Shown here: positions 4,349-62,960 of the stretch, in pieces
Numbering within the stretch: the first letter of the stretch is position 1
How the letters are laid out: each line of letters begins with the position of its first letter
Source: Chryseobacterium sp. VAUSW3
GTDB lineage: Bacteria > Bacteroidota > Bacteroidia > Flavobacteriales > Weeksellaceae
Assembly: GCF_002205795.1 (NCBI RefSeq)
Contig: NZ_NIUY01000002.1
Span: 806,001-870,000 of the forward strand
Direction of reading: 5' to 3'
DNA: 64,000 nucleotides
The notes under the pieces: generated by a model
Database searches by the model: none
Told to the model about the DNA's origin: nothing
Seen by the model: only the letters and a program-made list of their open reading frames with translations
Program-made: the position numbers and the translations under genes

Positions 4349-6553
4349 TTAATTTGCAACATCAGAGATGAATTTAATCCTCAACATCCGAACTTCTTCA
4401 TCACTTAAATCATCGCCAAATTCGGCCAGAAGGACTTTCATGCTGTCACTGTCGGAACCGCGCATAAATTCCATGAAATCATCTACAATGTCTTCATCAA
4501 AATTCTCATCGATATAATAATCAATATTAAGCTTCGTTCCCTGATAAACAATACTTTCCATTTCTTTCAGCAAATCCTCCATGGAAAGGTTTTTAGCTTT
4601 TGCAATATCCTCGAGATCAATTTTTTTATCCGTACTCTGAATGATGAAAACTTTGTGACTGGATTTATTTGCCACCTGTTTGATGACCATGTCCTGGGTT
4701 CGCTCTATACCGTTTTCTTCAACGTATTTTTTAATGAACTCGGCAAATTCCTTTCCGTATTTTTTCGCTTTTCCTTCGCCAACTCCGTAGGTTTTTCCGA
4801 TTTCTTCAATGGTGACCGGATACTGAACGGTCATATCTTCCAAACTTGGATCCATGAAAACCGTATAAGGCGGAATGCCATGTTTTTTGGCTACCGACTT
4901 GCGCAATTCTTTCAGCTGAACAAAAAGATTTTCGTCTAAACCACTGTTTTGCTGCACCTGTACCTGCTGCGAATCTGCTTTGGTTTGGGCAAGATCGTAT
5001 TCGCGGTCTTCAGCGATGAGAAATGGAGTTTTATCTTTTCCGTCAATAACTTTTCTGCCTTTTTCTGTTACTTTCAGCACACCGTACGTTTCGATATCTT
5101 TCTGAAGATAATCCTGTACGGTGGCCTGGCGAATAATCGATTTCCAGAAATTTTCAGCTTCATTTTTTCCGAAACCGAAATACTTGCTCGTTTCAAGTTT
5201 ATAAGATTTTGTAACCGAATTTTCTTTTCCGACAATAACCGAAATCAAATCTTTAGTCTTGAATTTCTCTTCGAGATCTTTTACCAGATTCAATACCTGA
5301 TTTAGTTCTTTGGTCGCATCTTTCAGCGTAGGTGGATTTACAGAATTATCGCACATTTGTGCACCAGCGCCGTTTATCGGATCGAACTGTTCCCCGAAAT
5401 AATAAAGAATATACTGGCGGCGGCTCATGGAAGTTTCGGCATAACCCACCACTTCATTCAGGAGCTGAAGGCCGATTTCGCGCTCAGAAACGGGTTTCTG
5501 TGCAAGAAATTTTTCAAGTTTCTCGATGTCTTTTGGATCATAAAATGCGAGACAGTAACCTTCTCCGCCATCTCTTCCGGCCCTTCCGGTTTCCTGATAA
5601 TAGCTTTCGAGAGATTTTGGAATATCGTAATGAATCACAAACCTTACATCCGGCTTATCGATTCCCATTCCGAAAGCAATGGTAGCGACAATTACATCAC
5701 ATTCTTCCATCAGGAATTTATCCTGGTTTGCAACACGGGTTTTTTGGTCAAGACCTGCGTGATACGGCAGCGCATTGATTCCGTTCACCTGCAGAAGTTG
5801 CGCAAACTCTTCAACTTTCCGCCTGCTGAGACAGTAAACAATGCCCGATTTTCCTTTATGCTGATTGATGAATTTTACAATTTCTTTGTCGATATTAACT
5901 TTCGGGCGAACTTCGTAAAAGAGGTTCGGGCGGTTAAAGCTTTCTTTAAAAACCAACGCATTCGTCATTCCCAGCGTTTTCTGGATGTCATCCTGAACTT
6001 TTGGCGTTGCGGTTGCAGTTAAAGCAATCACCGGAACATCTGCAATTTTATCGATAATAAGCTTCAGGTTTCTGTATTCCGGGCGGAAATCGTGCCCCCA
6101 TTCCGAAATACAGTGCGCTTCATCAATGGCTACAAAAGAGATTTTCACATCCCGCAGAAAATCCAGATACTCTTCCTTAATCAGTGATTCCGGGGCAACA
6201 TATAGCAGCTTGGTGCGTCCGGCTTTGATATCATCGAAAACCTGTTTGGTCTGGGTTTTATTGAGAGAAGAGTTCAAAACATGGGCAACGCCCAGATCGG
6301 AAGAAAGCCCGTTAACAGCATCTACCTGGTTTTTCATCAGCGCAATTAATGGCGAAACCACAATGGCAGTTCCTTCGGAAATAAGCGCCGGCAACTGGTA
6401 ACACAACGATTTTCCGCCCCCTGTAGGCATAAGTACAAAAATATCTTTCCCGTCGAGTAAATTTTTTATAATCGCTTCCTGCTGACCTTTAAATGTTGAG
6501 AAGCCGAAATATTTTTTGAGTTCTTTTGATAAATCGGCGTTTTTTGTTTTCAT
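4349..6553 (-). CDS. recQ: ATP-dependent DNA helicase RecQ
   Basis: 3'-5' superfamily 2 helicase acting in recombination and fork repair. Walker A is MPTGGGKSL (42-50), the DEAH box is at 144-147 within [17 protein letters not shown], motif III is ALTATAT (about 177-183), and motif VI is in the [10 protein letters not shown] segment. An RQC region follows, then an HRDC-like domain around residues 525-600 ([18 protein letters not shown]). At 734 residues it is longer than E. coli RecQ (about 610) because of a C-terminal acidic extension, a form common in Bacteroidota. The RQC zinc cysteines are reduced or rearranged: I see CDNSVNPP but not the full four-cysteine set, so zinc binding is uncertain. 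Start [10 protein letters not shown] is the first ATG. Confidence 0.94.
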
Positions 6554-7875: not shown

Positions 7876-8688
7876 ATGAGTGAGGGAAAAGAAATGTCAT
7901 TCTGGGGACACATCGGCGAATTGAGAGGACACCTGATCCGCTCCATCATTGCCATTATTATAGGCGCCATTGTAGTGGGACTGAATGTAAACTGGATCAT
8001 GGACCATATTTTTTTCGGGCCTACACGCAACGATTTCTTTACCTTTAGAGTGGTAAATCATTTTTCCCGCGAACTTATCGGCCAAGACAGTATTACCCTG
8101 CCAGAACATTTCGCGGTGCAGCAGAAGAAACTTTTCCAGCAGTTTAATGTAATGATGTCGGTTTCTATTTTCGGTGGAATTGTTGCGGCTTTTCCTTATA
8201 TCATATGGGAACTTTGGAGATTTATTTCGCCCGCACTACATCCAAACGAGCGCAAAAACTCAGTTTTCCTGATTAATTTTGTGTGGATTCTTTTTGTCGT
8301 AGGAATTCTATGCGGATATTTCCTCATCCTTCCGTTTGCGATTAATTTCGGGTTATTGTTTACGATTTCAGATTCAATCACTCAGCTATTTGATCTCAGT
8401 GACTATACTACCCTTTTTATGCAGGTTGTGCTTGGGATGGGGCTTGTGTTCCTCTTTCCGGTGATCGTTTATTTCCTGACTTCAATAGGGATTTTAACGC
8501 CACAGTTCATGCGAACTTACCGCCGACATGCGATTGTTTTAATTATGGTTGTTGCGGCAATTATTACTCCGGCTGATGTACTGAGTATGTTGATGGCAGC
8601 GTTCCCACTTCTTCTGCTGTATGAATTCAGTATTATGATGAGCGCTTACACCTACAAAAAAGTGGAGCAGCGTGCGAACCAGCAATGA
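7876..8688 (+). CDS. tatC: Sec-independent protein translocase TatC
   Basis: Inner-membrane core of the twin-arginine translocase; binds the RR signal peptide of folded exported proteins. The 270-residue protein starts MSEGKEMSFWGHIGELRGHLIRSI, the conserved cytoplasmic N-terminus (F-x-H-x-x-E-L-R) of TatC, and shows six predicted membrane segments with FPYIIWELWRFISPAL, the conserved first periplasmic and second helix region. It carries a periplasmic insertion of about 45 residues after helix 1 (HIFFGPTRNDFF onward), usual in Bacteroidota. No tatA/tatB is adjacent. Follows kdsD in the same direction with a 136-nt gap, so co-transcription is uncertain. Confidence 0.94.
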   Translation: MSEGKEMSFWGHIGELRGHLIRSIIAIIIGAIVVGLNVNWIMDHIFFGPTRNDFFTFRVVNHFSRELIGQDSITLPEHFAVQQKKLFQQFNVMMSVSIFGGIVAAFPYIIWELWRFISPALHPNERKNSVFLINFVWILFVVGILCGYFLILPFAINFGLLFTISDSITQLFDLSDYTTLFMQVVLGMGLVFLFPVIVYFLTSIGILTPQFMRTYRRHAIVLIMVVAAIITPADVLSMLMAAFPLLLLYEFSIMMSAYTYKKVEQRANQQ

Positions 8689-59737: not shown

Positions 59738-60703
59738 ATGTCCTTAACATTTTTACTTCTTGTCCTCATCGCCCTTGTGGTGACCATCGGAATCATTACC
59801 AAAAAACTTGATATCCTCACCTACTCCCCGCCCGATAAAAACGGGAAACAGATGCCCAACGGCGTGAAATGGAAGCCCGTCACCTTTATTCTGCTCGCAG
59901 CCCTCGCGGCACTCATACAGCCCATGAATTACGACGTGATCAGCGTGGGACACAAAGGCCTGCTCATCAACTTACTCGGCGACCGGAGAGGCGTTTCCGA
60001 TACCGAAGAAGTTTCGGGGGTGGTGTTCTACAACAAATACACCCAGGAAATTCAGGAAATTCCGCTCGACCAGCGACATATCGAATATCCGGAATCCATT
60101 ATTGTTGCCAAAGGCGGGTTCCCCTGCCCGATCAAGCCTTCGTTCAACTATTCGGTGAAGGAATCTACGGCCTCGGATATGTTTACGAACCTGAGGTCTA
60201 CCTACAAGAAAGGCGGACTGGAAGCCATTCAGGACGGGTGGCTGAACAATGCCATCATCGGGGCCATCAATGATGTGGCGAACCGGCATTCGATTGATTA
60301 CCTTTTCAACAACCGCGAAACTTATGAAGCGGAAATCCTGTCGGAAGTGAATAAAAGAATCGGAAAATGGTTTATGGTTTCGCAGCTGAAAACCAATATC
60401 CAGCCTCCGAAAGCCATCCGCCAGTCGATTGAAGACAAGGCAACTGCCGATGCTGATGCGATTAAAGCGGAAGCACAGGCACGTGTCGCGCAGGCCGATG
60501 CACAGCGTAAAATCCAGCTGGCGAAAGGAGATTCAGCCTCTATTGTGATCCGGGCGCAGGCCGATGCCAAGGCGATCAGCCTGAAGCAGCAGGAAATTAC
60601 GCCCACTTATGTGGAATACCAGCGCGTCCTGAAATGGGACGGCGTAATGCCGACGACTACGCTTGGAAGCGGGAGTGGGACGTTGTTAAATTTGGGGAAA
60701 TAG
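59738..60703 (+). CDS. SPFH/Band 7 (prohibitin-like) membrane protein
   Basis: Membrane-anchored scaffold protein of 321 residues. Two hydrophobic N-terminal segments (about 3-20 and 47-62) are followed by the SPFH domain (about 65-240; VGHKGLLINLLGDRRGVSDT, FNYSVKESTASDMFTNL) and a helical tail rich in Ala, Asp and Lys (AEAQARVAQADAQRKIQLAK) that forms coiled coil, then a Gly-rich end. This layout is that of flotillin/prohibitin-type proteins that form rings in the membrane, often with proteases or lipid domains. No NfeD partner gene is adjacent. Codon use is more GC-rich than neighbours on both sides. Confidence 0.85.
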   Translation: MSLTFLLLVLIALVVTIGIITKKLDILTYSPPDKNGKQMPNGVKWKPVTFILLAALAALIQPMNYDVISVGHKGLLINLLGDRRGVSDTEEVSGVVFYNKYTQEIQEIPLDQRHIEYPESIIVAKGGFPCPIKPSFNYSVKESTASDMFTNLRSTYKKGGLEAIQDGWLNNAIIGAINDVANRHSIDYLFNNRETYEAEILSEVNKRIGKWFMVSQLKTNIQPPKAIRQSIEDKATADADAIKAEAQARVAQADAQRKIQLAKGDSASIVIRAQADAKAISLKQQEITPTYVEYQRVLKWDGVMPTTTLGSGSGTLLNLGK

Positions 60704-60790
60704 GCGCAATTTGAAAAAACTAAGCGCAGAGAAGATTCGATGCAGTCAGATTTGAGTAGCGAGATATGTTTATTACATTCAAAACATGCT

Positions 60791-60833
60791 AACTATAGTC
60801 TGTTGCTCATTCTGTATACTACGATTAGCTTTA
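60791..60833 (+). promoter_or_regulatory. Candidate controller operator and promoter of the restriction operon
   Basis: AACTATAGTC (60791-60800) is an 8-bp palindrome (ACTATAGT) like known C-protein boxes. Downstream lie GTATAC (60814-60819) and TAGCTTTA (60826-60833), 7 of 8 to the -7 consensus, with TTG at 60802-60804 as a weak -33. The palindrome lies just upstream of the promoter, where a controller could activate its own operon. Confidence 0.5.
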
Positions 60834-60850
60834 CAAATCAACCATAAAGA

Positions 60851-61063
60851 ATGGACGACACAAAAAAAATACTTATAGACTTTGGAAATAAAGTTAGACA
60901 ACTCCGAAAGATTAAGAATATTTCGCAGGAGGAACTAGCGCACAAGGCCGATTTACATAGAACGTATATTGGGATGATTGAAAGAGCAGAAAAAAATATC
61001 ACTCTTATAAATGTGCAAAAAATGGCCAATGCTCTGGAGGTGGATATTAAAGAATTATTTTAA
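60851..61063 (+). CDS. Small XRE-family regulator (putative restriction-modification controller, C protein)
   Basis: A 70-residue helix-turn-helix protein: KVRQLRKIKNISQEELAHKA and DLHRTYIGMIERAEKNITL, whose turn and the ending ALEVDIKELF match C-protein regulators of type II restriction-modification systems in size and in the HRTYIGMIERAEKNIT helix. C proteins bind as dimers and give a delay so that methylation precedes cutting. It overlaps the next gene by one base (TAATG), and its palindromic candidate operator lies 50-60 nt upstream. The start is the ATG at 60851. Confidence 0.85.
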   Translation: MDDTKKILIDFGNKVRQLRKIKNISQEELAHKADLHRTYIGMIERAEKNITLINVQKMANALEVDIKELF

Positions 61064-62175
61064 TGGCATTATCAAATATTTTTAAGTTTACGCAAGGATT
61101 AGGACAGGGAGGTCATCAGATTGGCAGAAAGGTGGGAGATGCCATCGAAATTCTAATTTTGGGACTACTACACAGCAACAGCGATCTTACTCGTTTTCTA
61201 GTTGTTGAAGATGGGGTTGAAGGAGCAACATCAGCAAAACACAAAGTAGAATTCTCTTTCTACAATTTAGATACCGAGGGAACACCTTTAAAAAGCACAT
61301 CTGAGCAACTTTTTGGCATAATAGAATGTAAAAAGGTTGGAGTTGAACAAACTATAAAACAAAGCTTCAAAGTATTTAATGCTGCGAATCCTCAATTTGA
61401 TATTTCCGAAGGTTATAGTTTCGTAATGTCTCCAACTTGTCGCTCATACAAATGGCTTATCCATGTCAATGCCATCAACGATGGGTCAGAGAATAACATC
61501 AAAATAAAGGTTAATAAAATAATTTCCCCAGAACACATTGAAACCACAGAGCACATAATACAAGTTGAGGCAGGAACTCAAATTTTATTTGCGACGGATA
61601 TTTCGAATAACTTCCATCTGAAATTCTCAAATGAATCGCTCTCAGAAATAGAAGACCCATTAAATAAATGTATAATTCTTCAGATAATAACGGTTACAGA
61701 TAATCAGATAAAGAAAATTAATGTAAACGAGGCACTTGCAGGTCCCCAAACCCCAGAGAAAGCAAAACAAGCTAGCTTTGTATCATTAGACGTACGCAAA
61801 AAGGTGCTCGGTTCATTTGATAAAAATGGTGATGATAGCTTCATCTCCGTACTAGTAATAGGGGAAGCAGGTCACTGGGAAGAGAAATCCCGCTCAATGG
61901 TTAGATTGTGTAACGATCATAATTTATACATTCCAGATGAAATCATAGTTTCTTTATTTACATCATTTAAAGAAAAATTTGGAGATCGGTACCAATCATT
62001 AATCACAAAATCAAACTATCTTTTTAATGACGACGTGAAAAATGCGGTAGATGAATTACTTACAGCAAACGATTTCAAAATTTTAAGAGAACTAGACACA
62101 GACTCATATGTTAAATTTGCTTATTTAAATTCAGACGGAAAAAACAAACTCAGAATAATTCCTTTTGAAAATTAA
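61063..62175 (+). CDS. Putative type II restriction endonuclease (PD-(D/E)xK-like)
   Basis: I do not recognise a named family. The 370-residue protein has an N-terminal helix (GRKVGDAIEILILGLLHS), then KHKVEFSFYNLD (Glu63) and LFGIIECKKVGVEQ (Glu88-x-Lys90), spaced as in PD-(D/E)xK nucleases: an acid on one strand and E-x-K on the next. The remainder is beta-rich (residues 130-240) with a helical end, possibly the DNA-recognition part. Position after a C-protein gene and opposite a methyltransferase gene, with 1-nt overlap at the start and 4-nt overlap at the end, supports a restriction enzyme. Low-GC codon use unlike the SPFH neighbour suggests transfer. Confidence 0.68.
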   Translation: MALSNIFKFTQGLGQGGHQIGRKVGDAIEILILGLLHSNSDLTRFLVVEDGVEGATSAKHKVEFSFYNLDTEGTPLKSTSEQLFGIIECKKVGVEQTIKQSFKVFNAANPQFDISEGYSFVMSPTCRSYKWLIHVNAINDGSENNIKIKVNKIISPEHIETTEHIIQVEAGTQILFATDISNNFHLKFSNESLSEIEDPLNKCIILQIITVTDNQIKKINVNEALAGPQTPEKAKQASFVSLDVRKKVLGSFDKNGDDSFISVLVIGEAGHWEEKSRSMVRLCNDHNLYIPDEIIVSLFTSFKEKFGDRYQSLITKSNYLFNDDVKNAVDELLTANDFKILRELDTDSYVKFAYLNSDGKNKLRIIPFEN

Positions 62176-62762
62176 TCATTAGTAAACTGCAAAGTCAAAT
62201 TATTATCAATACCTATTGGTAAATCTCTCAGAGGCCTTATATCTATAACAGCTCCATACTTTAAAAAATGATTAAAGAAATCATCATATCTTTCACCCCA
62301 ATAAATTAAGCAACAAGACATTGGCGCACCCTTTCCAGTATCTTTACCATCTTCCAAAAATTTAAGTCTTGTATCGTATAATAAGCAAATCGCCGATGCT
62401 TTAGGGTACACATAGTTTTTCCAATGTCCAGTATTAGTAGCAACCGGCACTAATGCTATTACTTCAGACCCATGTATTTCTGAAGCATCACTACATCTTT
62501 TCAACCAATTTTTTATCGTGGTCTTTCGTACCTTATCCGAACCGTATGGCGGATTGACATAGATTGTAGGAAAATTCCACGAATCAAATAAGCCATCATT
62601 TTGCGGCAGAATGTATTCTACATTAGCATTTACTATCGAATATTTGTTAGAACATGGATCCAATGCAATATTCCCATTAAAAAAATCCTTCACGGCTTTA
62701 ACATACTTTTTCGGTGTGCCCCAACTCTGACTTTGTGTATTTTGTGTTCTTCCTGCACTCAT
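62172..62762 (-). CDS. Phage-type DNA N6-adenine methyltransferase
   Basis: SAM-dependent adenine methyltransferase, 196 residues, of the compact phage Dam-like group. Motifs: SWGTPKKYVKAVKDFF at the start, LDPCS (34-38, SAM site), and the catalytic NPPYG (70-74) in IYVNPPYGSDKVRKTTIKNW. Other family marks are VIALVPVATNTGHWKNYVY and RLKFLEDGKDTGKGAP. It converges on the nuclease gene with a 4-nt overlap and has its own promoter, so both can be tuned separately. I use the ATG at 62760-62762 (MSAGRTQNTQ); the TTG upstream lies in the -7 element. Recognition sequence unknown. Confidence 0.86.
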   Translation of the reverse strand: MSAGRTQNTQSQSWGTPKKYVKAVKDFFNGNIALDPCSNKYSIVNANVEYILPQNDGLFDSWNFPTIYVNPPYGSDKVRKTTIKNWLKRCSDASEIHGSEVIALVPVATNTGHWKNYVYPKASAICLLYDTRLKFLEDGKDTGKGAPMSCCLIYWGERYDDFFNHFLKYGAVIDIRPLRDLPIGIDNNLTLQFTND

Positions 62763-62774
62763 AACAAAAATGAT

Positions 62775-62818
62775 AATTATAGTATGCAAATATAATTAAA
62801 ATATTCTGACAATACAAA
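62775..62818 (-). promoter_or_regulatory. Methyltransferase promoter with C-box-like site
   Basis: On the minus strand, TTTG (62815-62818), 20-nt spacer, TATATTTG (62787-62794), an ideal Bacteroidota promoter. Just after the -7 element lies AATTATAGTA (62775-62784, plus-strand reading), sharing TATAGT with the site at 60791, so the same controller may repress here. Confidence 0.6.
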
Positions 62819-62960
62819 ATTGTTTTTAAAAGTAAATAGCAGTCAAAAGCATAGAAATCACCCCCAGCTGCGCAAAGTCCCCGGTGAGCAAAGTCTCCTG
62901 ACTTTTCGCCCACCATGTAAAACCACAGACTTTGAACCTTCTAAAAAATCATATTAGCAT

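Follow-up and report, generated by a model that had tools for sequence, protein, structure and literature searches.

A putative C-controlled Type II restriction-modification cassette of Chryseobacterium sp. VAUSW3 with a BspHI-family nuclease and a small PF05869 methyltransferase

Introduction

The controller-regulated restriction-modification (R-M) systems closest to the locus described here are Esp1396I and the system of plasmid pBspH1. In Esp1396I, the genes of the controller (C) and the restriction endonuclease (R) form an operon convergent with the methyltransferase gene (M), the operators OL and OR lie before C, and C represses M at the M start, as set out in PMC4041747. Plasmid pBspH1 comes from the BspHI source strain, Acinetobacter sp. 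NEB 394, and has the layout of our locus, with C and R in one direction and M facing them. According to PMC8259958, this strain, Acinetobacter sp. H, used to be classified as Bacillus sp. H, its systems carry the names BspHI and so on, and BspHIII and BspHIV are Type III; PMC12707154 lists M.BspHII as the BREX enzyme. Because the other names are taken by Type III and BREX systems, BspHI can be assigned to pBspH1 by elimination, and the pBspH1 R-M system is probably BspHI itself. In the open-licence literature we found nothing on R.BspHI and nothing on PF05869-type enzymes as cognate R-M methyltransferases.

Here we analyze a three-gene locus in a 64,000-nt stretch of Chryseobacterium sp. VAUSW3 DNA (contig NZ_NIUY01000002.1, positions 806,001 to 870,000), hereafter the window. 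An earlier note, made from the sequence alone, had read it as a compact restriction island with an unassignable nuclease.

Results

The three open reading frames named in that note, of 70, 370 and 196 residues, are all present with the 1-nt and 4-nt overlaps claimed for them (Table 1). The C stop codon ends on the first base of the R start codon (TAATG, at 61063), and R and M meet tail to tail, with the R stop at 62175 and the M stop at 62172. The description of tight packing was thus correct and was silent on one point: C and R are read in the same direction, and M runs towards R from the opposite strand. The M start was taken as the ATG at 62762 (MSAGR..., also found in the Flavobacterium humi locus L003), not as the longer TTG start of the open reading frame list.

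Table 1. Positions of the genes, predicted catalytic codons and candidate regulatory sites in the window
Feature	Position	Strand	Description
C	60851-61063	+	70-aa controller protein (XRE/HTH_3)
R	61063-62175	+	370-aa restriction endonuclease (predicted), homologous to the pBspH1 (probable BspHI) nuclease
M	62172-62762	-	196-aa PF05869 adenine methyltransferase (predicted), NPPY motif
Cassette	60710-62878	.	part without match in relative G027; G027 flanks match at 92%
V62-E63 codons, first catalytic acidic residue (predicted; HKVEF)	61246-61251	+	invariant in 10 aligned sequences
E88-C89-K90 codons (E-x-K)	61324-61332	+	invariant in 10 aligned sequences; within strand 83-91 of the model
Insert, codons 98-229, between strand 3 and helix B	61354-61749	+	strand-rich in the model
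Operator-like C-box, OL position	60787-60802	+	TGCTAACTATAGTCTG, directly upstream of the C/R promoter
Operator-like C-box, OM position	62771-62786	+ (strand of pattern match)	just upstream of the M start codon, downstream of the M -7 element
Candidate C/R promoter	60803-60832	+	TTG-N20-TAGCTTT, Bacteroidota type; position-only support
Possible weak second operator, OR position	60815-60830	-	overlaps the -7 element; four mismatches to the box pattern by eye
Candidate M promoter	62787-62818	-	TTTG-N20-TATATTTG, Bacteroidota type; position-only support

The GC content of the C, R and M genes (0.333-0.352) is lower than that of the adjacent SPFH gene (0.511), as had been noted, and the window as a whole stands at 0.396. 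Across the 64-kb window, 28 of 619 sliding windows of cassette length have a GC content as low as the cassette's or lower, which makes GC alone mild evidence of transfer. Transfer is better supported by relatives within the genus that carry other genes at this site. G027 matches the flanks at 92%, as far as 60709 on one side and from 62879 on the other, and has other genes in between, one of them for an LRR protein; yet other genes follow the SPFH gene in G019 (including an AAA_15 ATPase), G022 (including a T5orf172/DUF4041 protein) and G032 (including a KAP NTPase). No exact repeats of at least 9 bases, direct or inverted, were found between 60641-60760 and 62801-62960. Lateral acquisition of the cassette is supported by these sequence comparisons, and the cassette is probably mobile. 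The position after the SPFH gene (window 60710-62878; L027, L028, L030, L031) is variable in the genus and may be a defence hotspot. Around the F. humi cassette, similar direct-orientation sequences are visible by eye (L003:5400-5440 and 8158-8200), possibly reflecting how that cassette moved.

C matched HTH_3 at 1.7e-15 and the PADLOC model Control_protein at 1.1e-23, and its best solved-chain matches were C.AhdI (4.2e-15) and C.BclI (1.3e-13). Operator-like boxes, which the earlier note did not mention, precede both transcription units. Two 16-mers of the F. humi locus, one before C and one before M, picked after both loci had been seen, matched 444 kb of the window's genome with up to two mismatches only at 60787-60802 and 62771-62786. 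A pattern built from both loci returned these as its only matches in the window with up to three mismatches, against 1.14 expected by chance; the OR candidate at 60815-60830 was not among them. The 60787 box abuts the C/R promoter-like site from upstream, and the 62771 box lies directly after the M promoter-like site. Both candidate promoters follow the Bacteroidota-type consensus. The C/R pattern occurs seven times in the window against 8.2 expected by chance, and the M pattern has seven exact matches against 3.3; as this is no clear excess, only the positions of the two elements speak. Boxes ahead of the C/R promoter and at the start of M are where C-protein logic would place operators; activation from the first and repression from the second would reproduce the Esp1396I arrangement given in PMC4041747.

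R proved assignable after all. A profile search of the 370-residue protein, one of the checks the earlier note had proposed, matched it to the PADLOC REase_II model PDLC03437 (E 1.1e-61), which gives the pBspH1 nuclease a score of 893 bits, and R is 36.7% identical to that nuclease over 98% of its length. Pfam and NCBIfam profiles left R unnamed. Glu63, Glu88 and Lys90 lie where the note had placed them and do not vary among 10 aligned sequences, that of the window among them. The predicted structure (pLDDT 81.3) is consistent with the proposed fold, its elements running in PD-(D/E)XK order: helix-strand-strand-strand-(insert)-helix-strand, with the acidic residue on strand 2 and E-x-K on strand 3, as judged by element order against the canonical PD-(D/E)XK core. 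With this model, Foldseek returned no solved structure at E 0.001, and VIA-align no clear relative among the families listed. We propose that R is a PD-(D/E)XK nuclease with E63, E88 and K90 as its predicted active site. When R is compared with its eight aligned relatives apart from L003, identity falls to 16-26% in residues 98-224, against 43-64% in residues 1-97 and 225-300; on account of this low identity and its position, the insert at 98-229 is likely to be the DNA-recognition region.

The R family of the window is rare, as R was absent at E 0.001 from the other 99 genomes of one sample and from 394 of another. R had no match in phage records, and R alone was found in none of the viral contigs. 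Searches of 131 candidate stretches of genome contigs and 49 of viral contigs gave eight and three R-family loci, respectively, which with pBspH1 makes 12 besides the window. L003 of F. humi has the same trio in the same layout, with C 64%, R 57% and M 66% identical to those of the window. In nine of the 12 (L002, L005, L006, L007, L008, L009, L011, L012, L013), the same convergent position is held by a methyltransferase of 405-447 aa that is either the pBspH1 enzyme itself (L002) or 37-56% identical to it. L003 is the one other locus with the small M, and no M was seen in L004, which ends at the locus border, or in L010, where R is truncated. The large M has no BLASTP similarity to the window M, so a BspHI-type methyltransferase was not recovered as the partner of the window R.

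A tree of the conserved R core blocks places the window and L003 as sisters (100/99) inside a six-row group (91/90) whose other four rows have the large M; R2, a second nuclease-type protein described below, falls outside, and L008 is a long branch. L012, which gives matches identical to those of L007, was omitted from the alignments, and the split or cut R of L009 and L010 from the trees. Because the window and L003 nest among large-M rows, replacement of the large M by the small one in their branch is favoured, with moderate support from the tree. The window and L003 Ms are not sisters in either M tree; the C-R-M trio may therefore not have travelled as one unit, and M may have been exchanged more than once. 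Separately, L007:5149-7101 and L013:5746-7101 contain R frames of 650 and 451 aa, which extend upstream of the usual start and might be fusions, for example with a controller.

M was assigned by profile to PF05869 (3.5e-13; 50.0 bits, gathering score 28.1) and to phrog_111 (3.2e-26), and its 24.9 bits against TIGR01712, the phage N6A methylase equivalog, lie below the cut-off of 97.05. The NPPY motif is conserved with the L003 M. The M model (pLDDT 69.3) gave weak structural matches, among those listed RlmJ, M.TaqI, METTL3-METTL14 or Dam chains, with a best E of 1.2e-3. A non-specific methyltransferase of the M.EcoGII type, which belongs to a different class, was considered as the identity of M and set aside.

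These assignments bear on an alternative in which R and C are the remnant of a BspHI-family system that lost its own methyltransferase, and M is an unrelated phage-type orphan that landed beside them by chance. The nearest PADLOC model of M is indeed an orphan methyltransferase (oMTase, 1.1e-14), phages often encode PF05869-like proteins (M matches 165 of 50,697 phage records), and the separate placement of the window and L003 Ms in the trees points the same way. Against it stand the recurrence of the R-M pair in F. humi, the C-box-like site at the M start, and the company that M keeps elsewhere.

At E 0.001, M has relatives in 12 of 395 Bacteroidota genomes, its own included: five strong (E <1e-20) and seven weak. 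A profile of five M rows, applied at 1e-15, found members in 1 of 395 genomes of the window's order (its own), 3 of 98 of the order of G294 (G294 included) and 8 of 123 of the order of G254 (G254 included); three further M loci came from 24 stretches of viral contigs. The weak relatives in L039-L043 were covered only by a tblastn screen with our query proteins. Eleven of the 14 distinct open small Ms lie beside a nuclease-type gene: two beside R (window and L003) and nine beside R2 (L046, L049, L050, L107, L108, L111, L112, L113, L120). Among these, L108 is truncated by the contig start, L112 and L113 are from one genus, and L120 recurs identically in L121 and L122. In the phylum sample R2 was found in 2 of 395 genomes, adjoining M in both. 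The twelfth open M, in L110 (1495-2397), follows a C-like gene and the last ~41 residues of R2; this locus appears to have lost its nuclease and kept its controller and methyltransferase. For the remaining two, in viral contigs L047 (where M is a shorter frame of 178 aa) and L048, none of the query nucleases lay beside the open M. Four further cases were not counted as open: L117/L114, which has R2 but an M divided over two contigs; L051/L115, with a split M; and L116 (M cut) and L052 (M degraded), in neither of which a nuclease was seen.

With the long-branched Calothrix and Paenarthrobacter plasmid proteins dropped, as in the second M tree, 13 of the 14 Ms (all except that of L120) separate at 100/99 from the phage, plasmid and distant Bacteroidota proteins in the sample. 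The first tree keeps the two plasmid rows, and the split stands at 87/89, with a program warning that long branches meet. The M of L120, the R2 of L108 and L120, and the split or cut M of L051/L044/L115, L052, L114, L116 and L117 were omitted from the trees. Chance arrival of a phage orphan is, on this evidence, very improbable. Judged by gene neighbourhoods and trees, the small-M clade is an R-M-associated lineage and not a set of stray phage enzymes; the pairing, which the earlier note had called unusual for a usually solitary enzyme type, is no one-off.

R2 and R look like distant relatives in sequence comparison. In a two-sequence search, the R profile matched the R2 of L049 at 8.7e-14 (38.1 bits) and that of L050 at 1.1e-9 (24.6 bits); hhalign gave 93% over 62 columns, and both proteins contain, in the same order, GR..G..E, H.VE[FY], ECK.[VI]G[VI]E and GPQ..EKAKQ. 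Against kinship, the R2 profile at E 0.001 did not find the window R in its genome, and PDLC03437 at E 0.1 did not list the R2 proteins. Two R2 proteins scanned against PADLOC, Pfam and NCBIfam had no convincing match. HVE and ECK are 18-39 residues apart in 10 R proteins, as against 93-96 in the six R2 proteins measured, and the ECK-to-GPQ distance is 128-141 in R and 13 in R2, with a seventh R2 in agreement; these spacings put the long insert at two different positions within an apparently common core.

Several neighbouring arrangements were also observed. The split small M of L051 (two frames, near the contig end) adjoins a different nuclease, at L051:5850-7324, which matches PADLOC REase_II PDLC03414 at 1.1e-60 and had no match in solved chains or plasmids. 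In L050, a gene 59% identical to E. coli YhdJ (4580-5386) directly precedes R2 and M, and that operon may have two methyltransferases. YhdJ of E. coli recognizes ATGCAT; the gene was set aside as a clue to the R2-M site, since none lies beside R2 in L049. The R2-M pair of L120-L122, three identical viral-contig stretches, lies near an integrase-like gene, which suggests phage or prophage carriage. In two Bacteroidota genomes, more distant PF05869 methyltransferases (L053:6764-7561, L054:2424-3194) follow a ~260-aa gene, which in L053 matches HARE-HTH below threshold and REase_II weakly (3.5e-6); this is perhaps another methyltransferase-nuclease pairing.

Members of these families do decay, as seen in the split or degraded M of L051 and L052, the split R of L009 and the R2 reduced to its last residues in L110. 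That the window cassette is likewise decayed and no longer functional is nevertheless very improbable: its three frames are uninterrupted, and it retains the catalytic residues, NPPY and both boxes.

The frequencies of 16 four-base and 64 six-base palindromes were compared between 447.8 kb of the genome's own DNA and 400 kb from two relatives. No clear avoidance of a six-base palindrome particular to this genome emerged, and no site was derived from the counts. TCATGA stood at 0.98 of expectation in its own DNA; the largest contrast among the 14 lowest listed was TGTACA (0.82 against 1.01 in the relatives, z -1.7), and GATC and CATG were under-represented alike in this genome and the relatives. 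This lack of avoidance counts against an R-M reading, but a recent or inactive system would look the same. By homology, the target might be TCATGA, which the missing avoidance would still allow and which we offer as a guess that is somewhat less probable than its opposite. The absence of avoidance would also suit a nuclease that reads some other mark and forms no classical pair with M, a highly improbable reading given that R and M stand together under one controller, that R cutting M-marked DNA should be lethal, and that the probable BspHI nuclease, a member of the R family, has an M of its own.

Discussion

We conclude that the locus is very probably a C-controlled Type II R-M cassette with an R of the BspHI family and a small M. 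The earlier reading as a C-regulated, laterally acquired Type II cassette is supported, its function still deduced from sequence. Homology identifies separate, adjacent restriction endonuclease and DNA methyltransferase genes, as in Type II systems, and the pairing is kept across genomes, both in the F. humi trio and in the M clade beside nuclease-type genes. The new part is the methyltransferase partner and its wider clade; the nuclease family was already known.

In the proposed mechanism, R would cut unmodified target sites, and M, as an N6-adenine methyltransferase, would methylate the same sites on host DNA. On entry into a new cell, M would be transcribed at once from its own promoter, and C would accumulate slowly, bind the 60787 box and activate the C/R operon; C bound to the 62771 box, over the expected M start, would damp M. 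Compared with most R-family loci, the cassette has a non-homologous M gene and has kept C, R and the convergent layout. The genes, their homologies and layout, the placement of the boxes and the repeated pairing are observed; cutting, methylation, the common target, the timing and the direction of exchange are here all inferred from sequence.

A broader proposal, which we put forward tentatively and hold to be somewhat less probable than not, is that the small PF05869 clade is a dedicated R-M lineage common to the distantly related R and R2, that both nucleases read the same sequence with relocated inserts, and that the window cassette is an M exchange between them under conserved C control. 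The reason for a shared target would be that R and R2 are served by one kind of M. A Type II system can, on the preferred reading, retain its controller, nuclease and layout with a methyltransferase of a non-homologous kind. The results also suggest that cognate R-M enzymes are to be found among methyltransferases classed as phage-type or orphan (PADLOC oMTase). The R-M and R2-M pairings would escape annotation, as Pfam and NCBIfam do not name R and the two R2 proteins scanned have no convincing profile match. Two nuclease lineages with differently placed inserts would be useful for studying how the specificity of restriction enzymes is preserved or altered.

Compared with known systems, M resembles the PF05869 phage Dam-like methyltransferases in its PF05869 and phrog_111 matches and NPPY motif, and differs from them in scoring below the TIGR01712 cut-off, in being accompanied by R and C, and in its separation from the sampled phage and plasmid members in the tree. 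The R2-M pairs, which occur in Bacteroidota genomes and viral contigs, have an M of the same clade and an R2 with motifs common to R; they differ in their tandem order (R2 then M), in a C-like gene seen only in L110, and in the long insert, which lies between HVE and ECK in R2 and between ECK and GPQT in R. With Esp1396I, the cassette has in common a C/R operon convergent with M, a small XRE controller gene that precedes R on the same strand, and C operators, here predicted boxes, upstream of C/R and at the M start; in contrast, the window C resembles C.AhdI and C.BclI more closely, a second C/R operator is only weakly visible, and the promoter-like elements look Bacteroidota-type. The pBspH1 system differs in its M, of 411 aa and without BLASTP similarity to the window M (best E 5.8), and agrees in a homologous C (33% over 61 aa), an R homologous over its length with conserved catalytic residues, and the same gene order with a convergent M.
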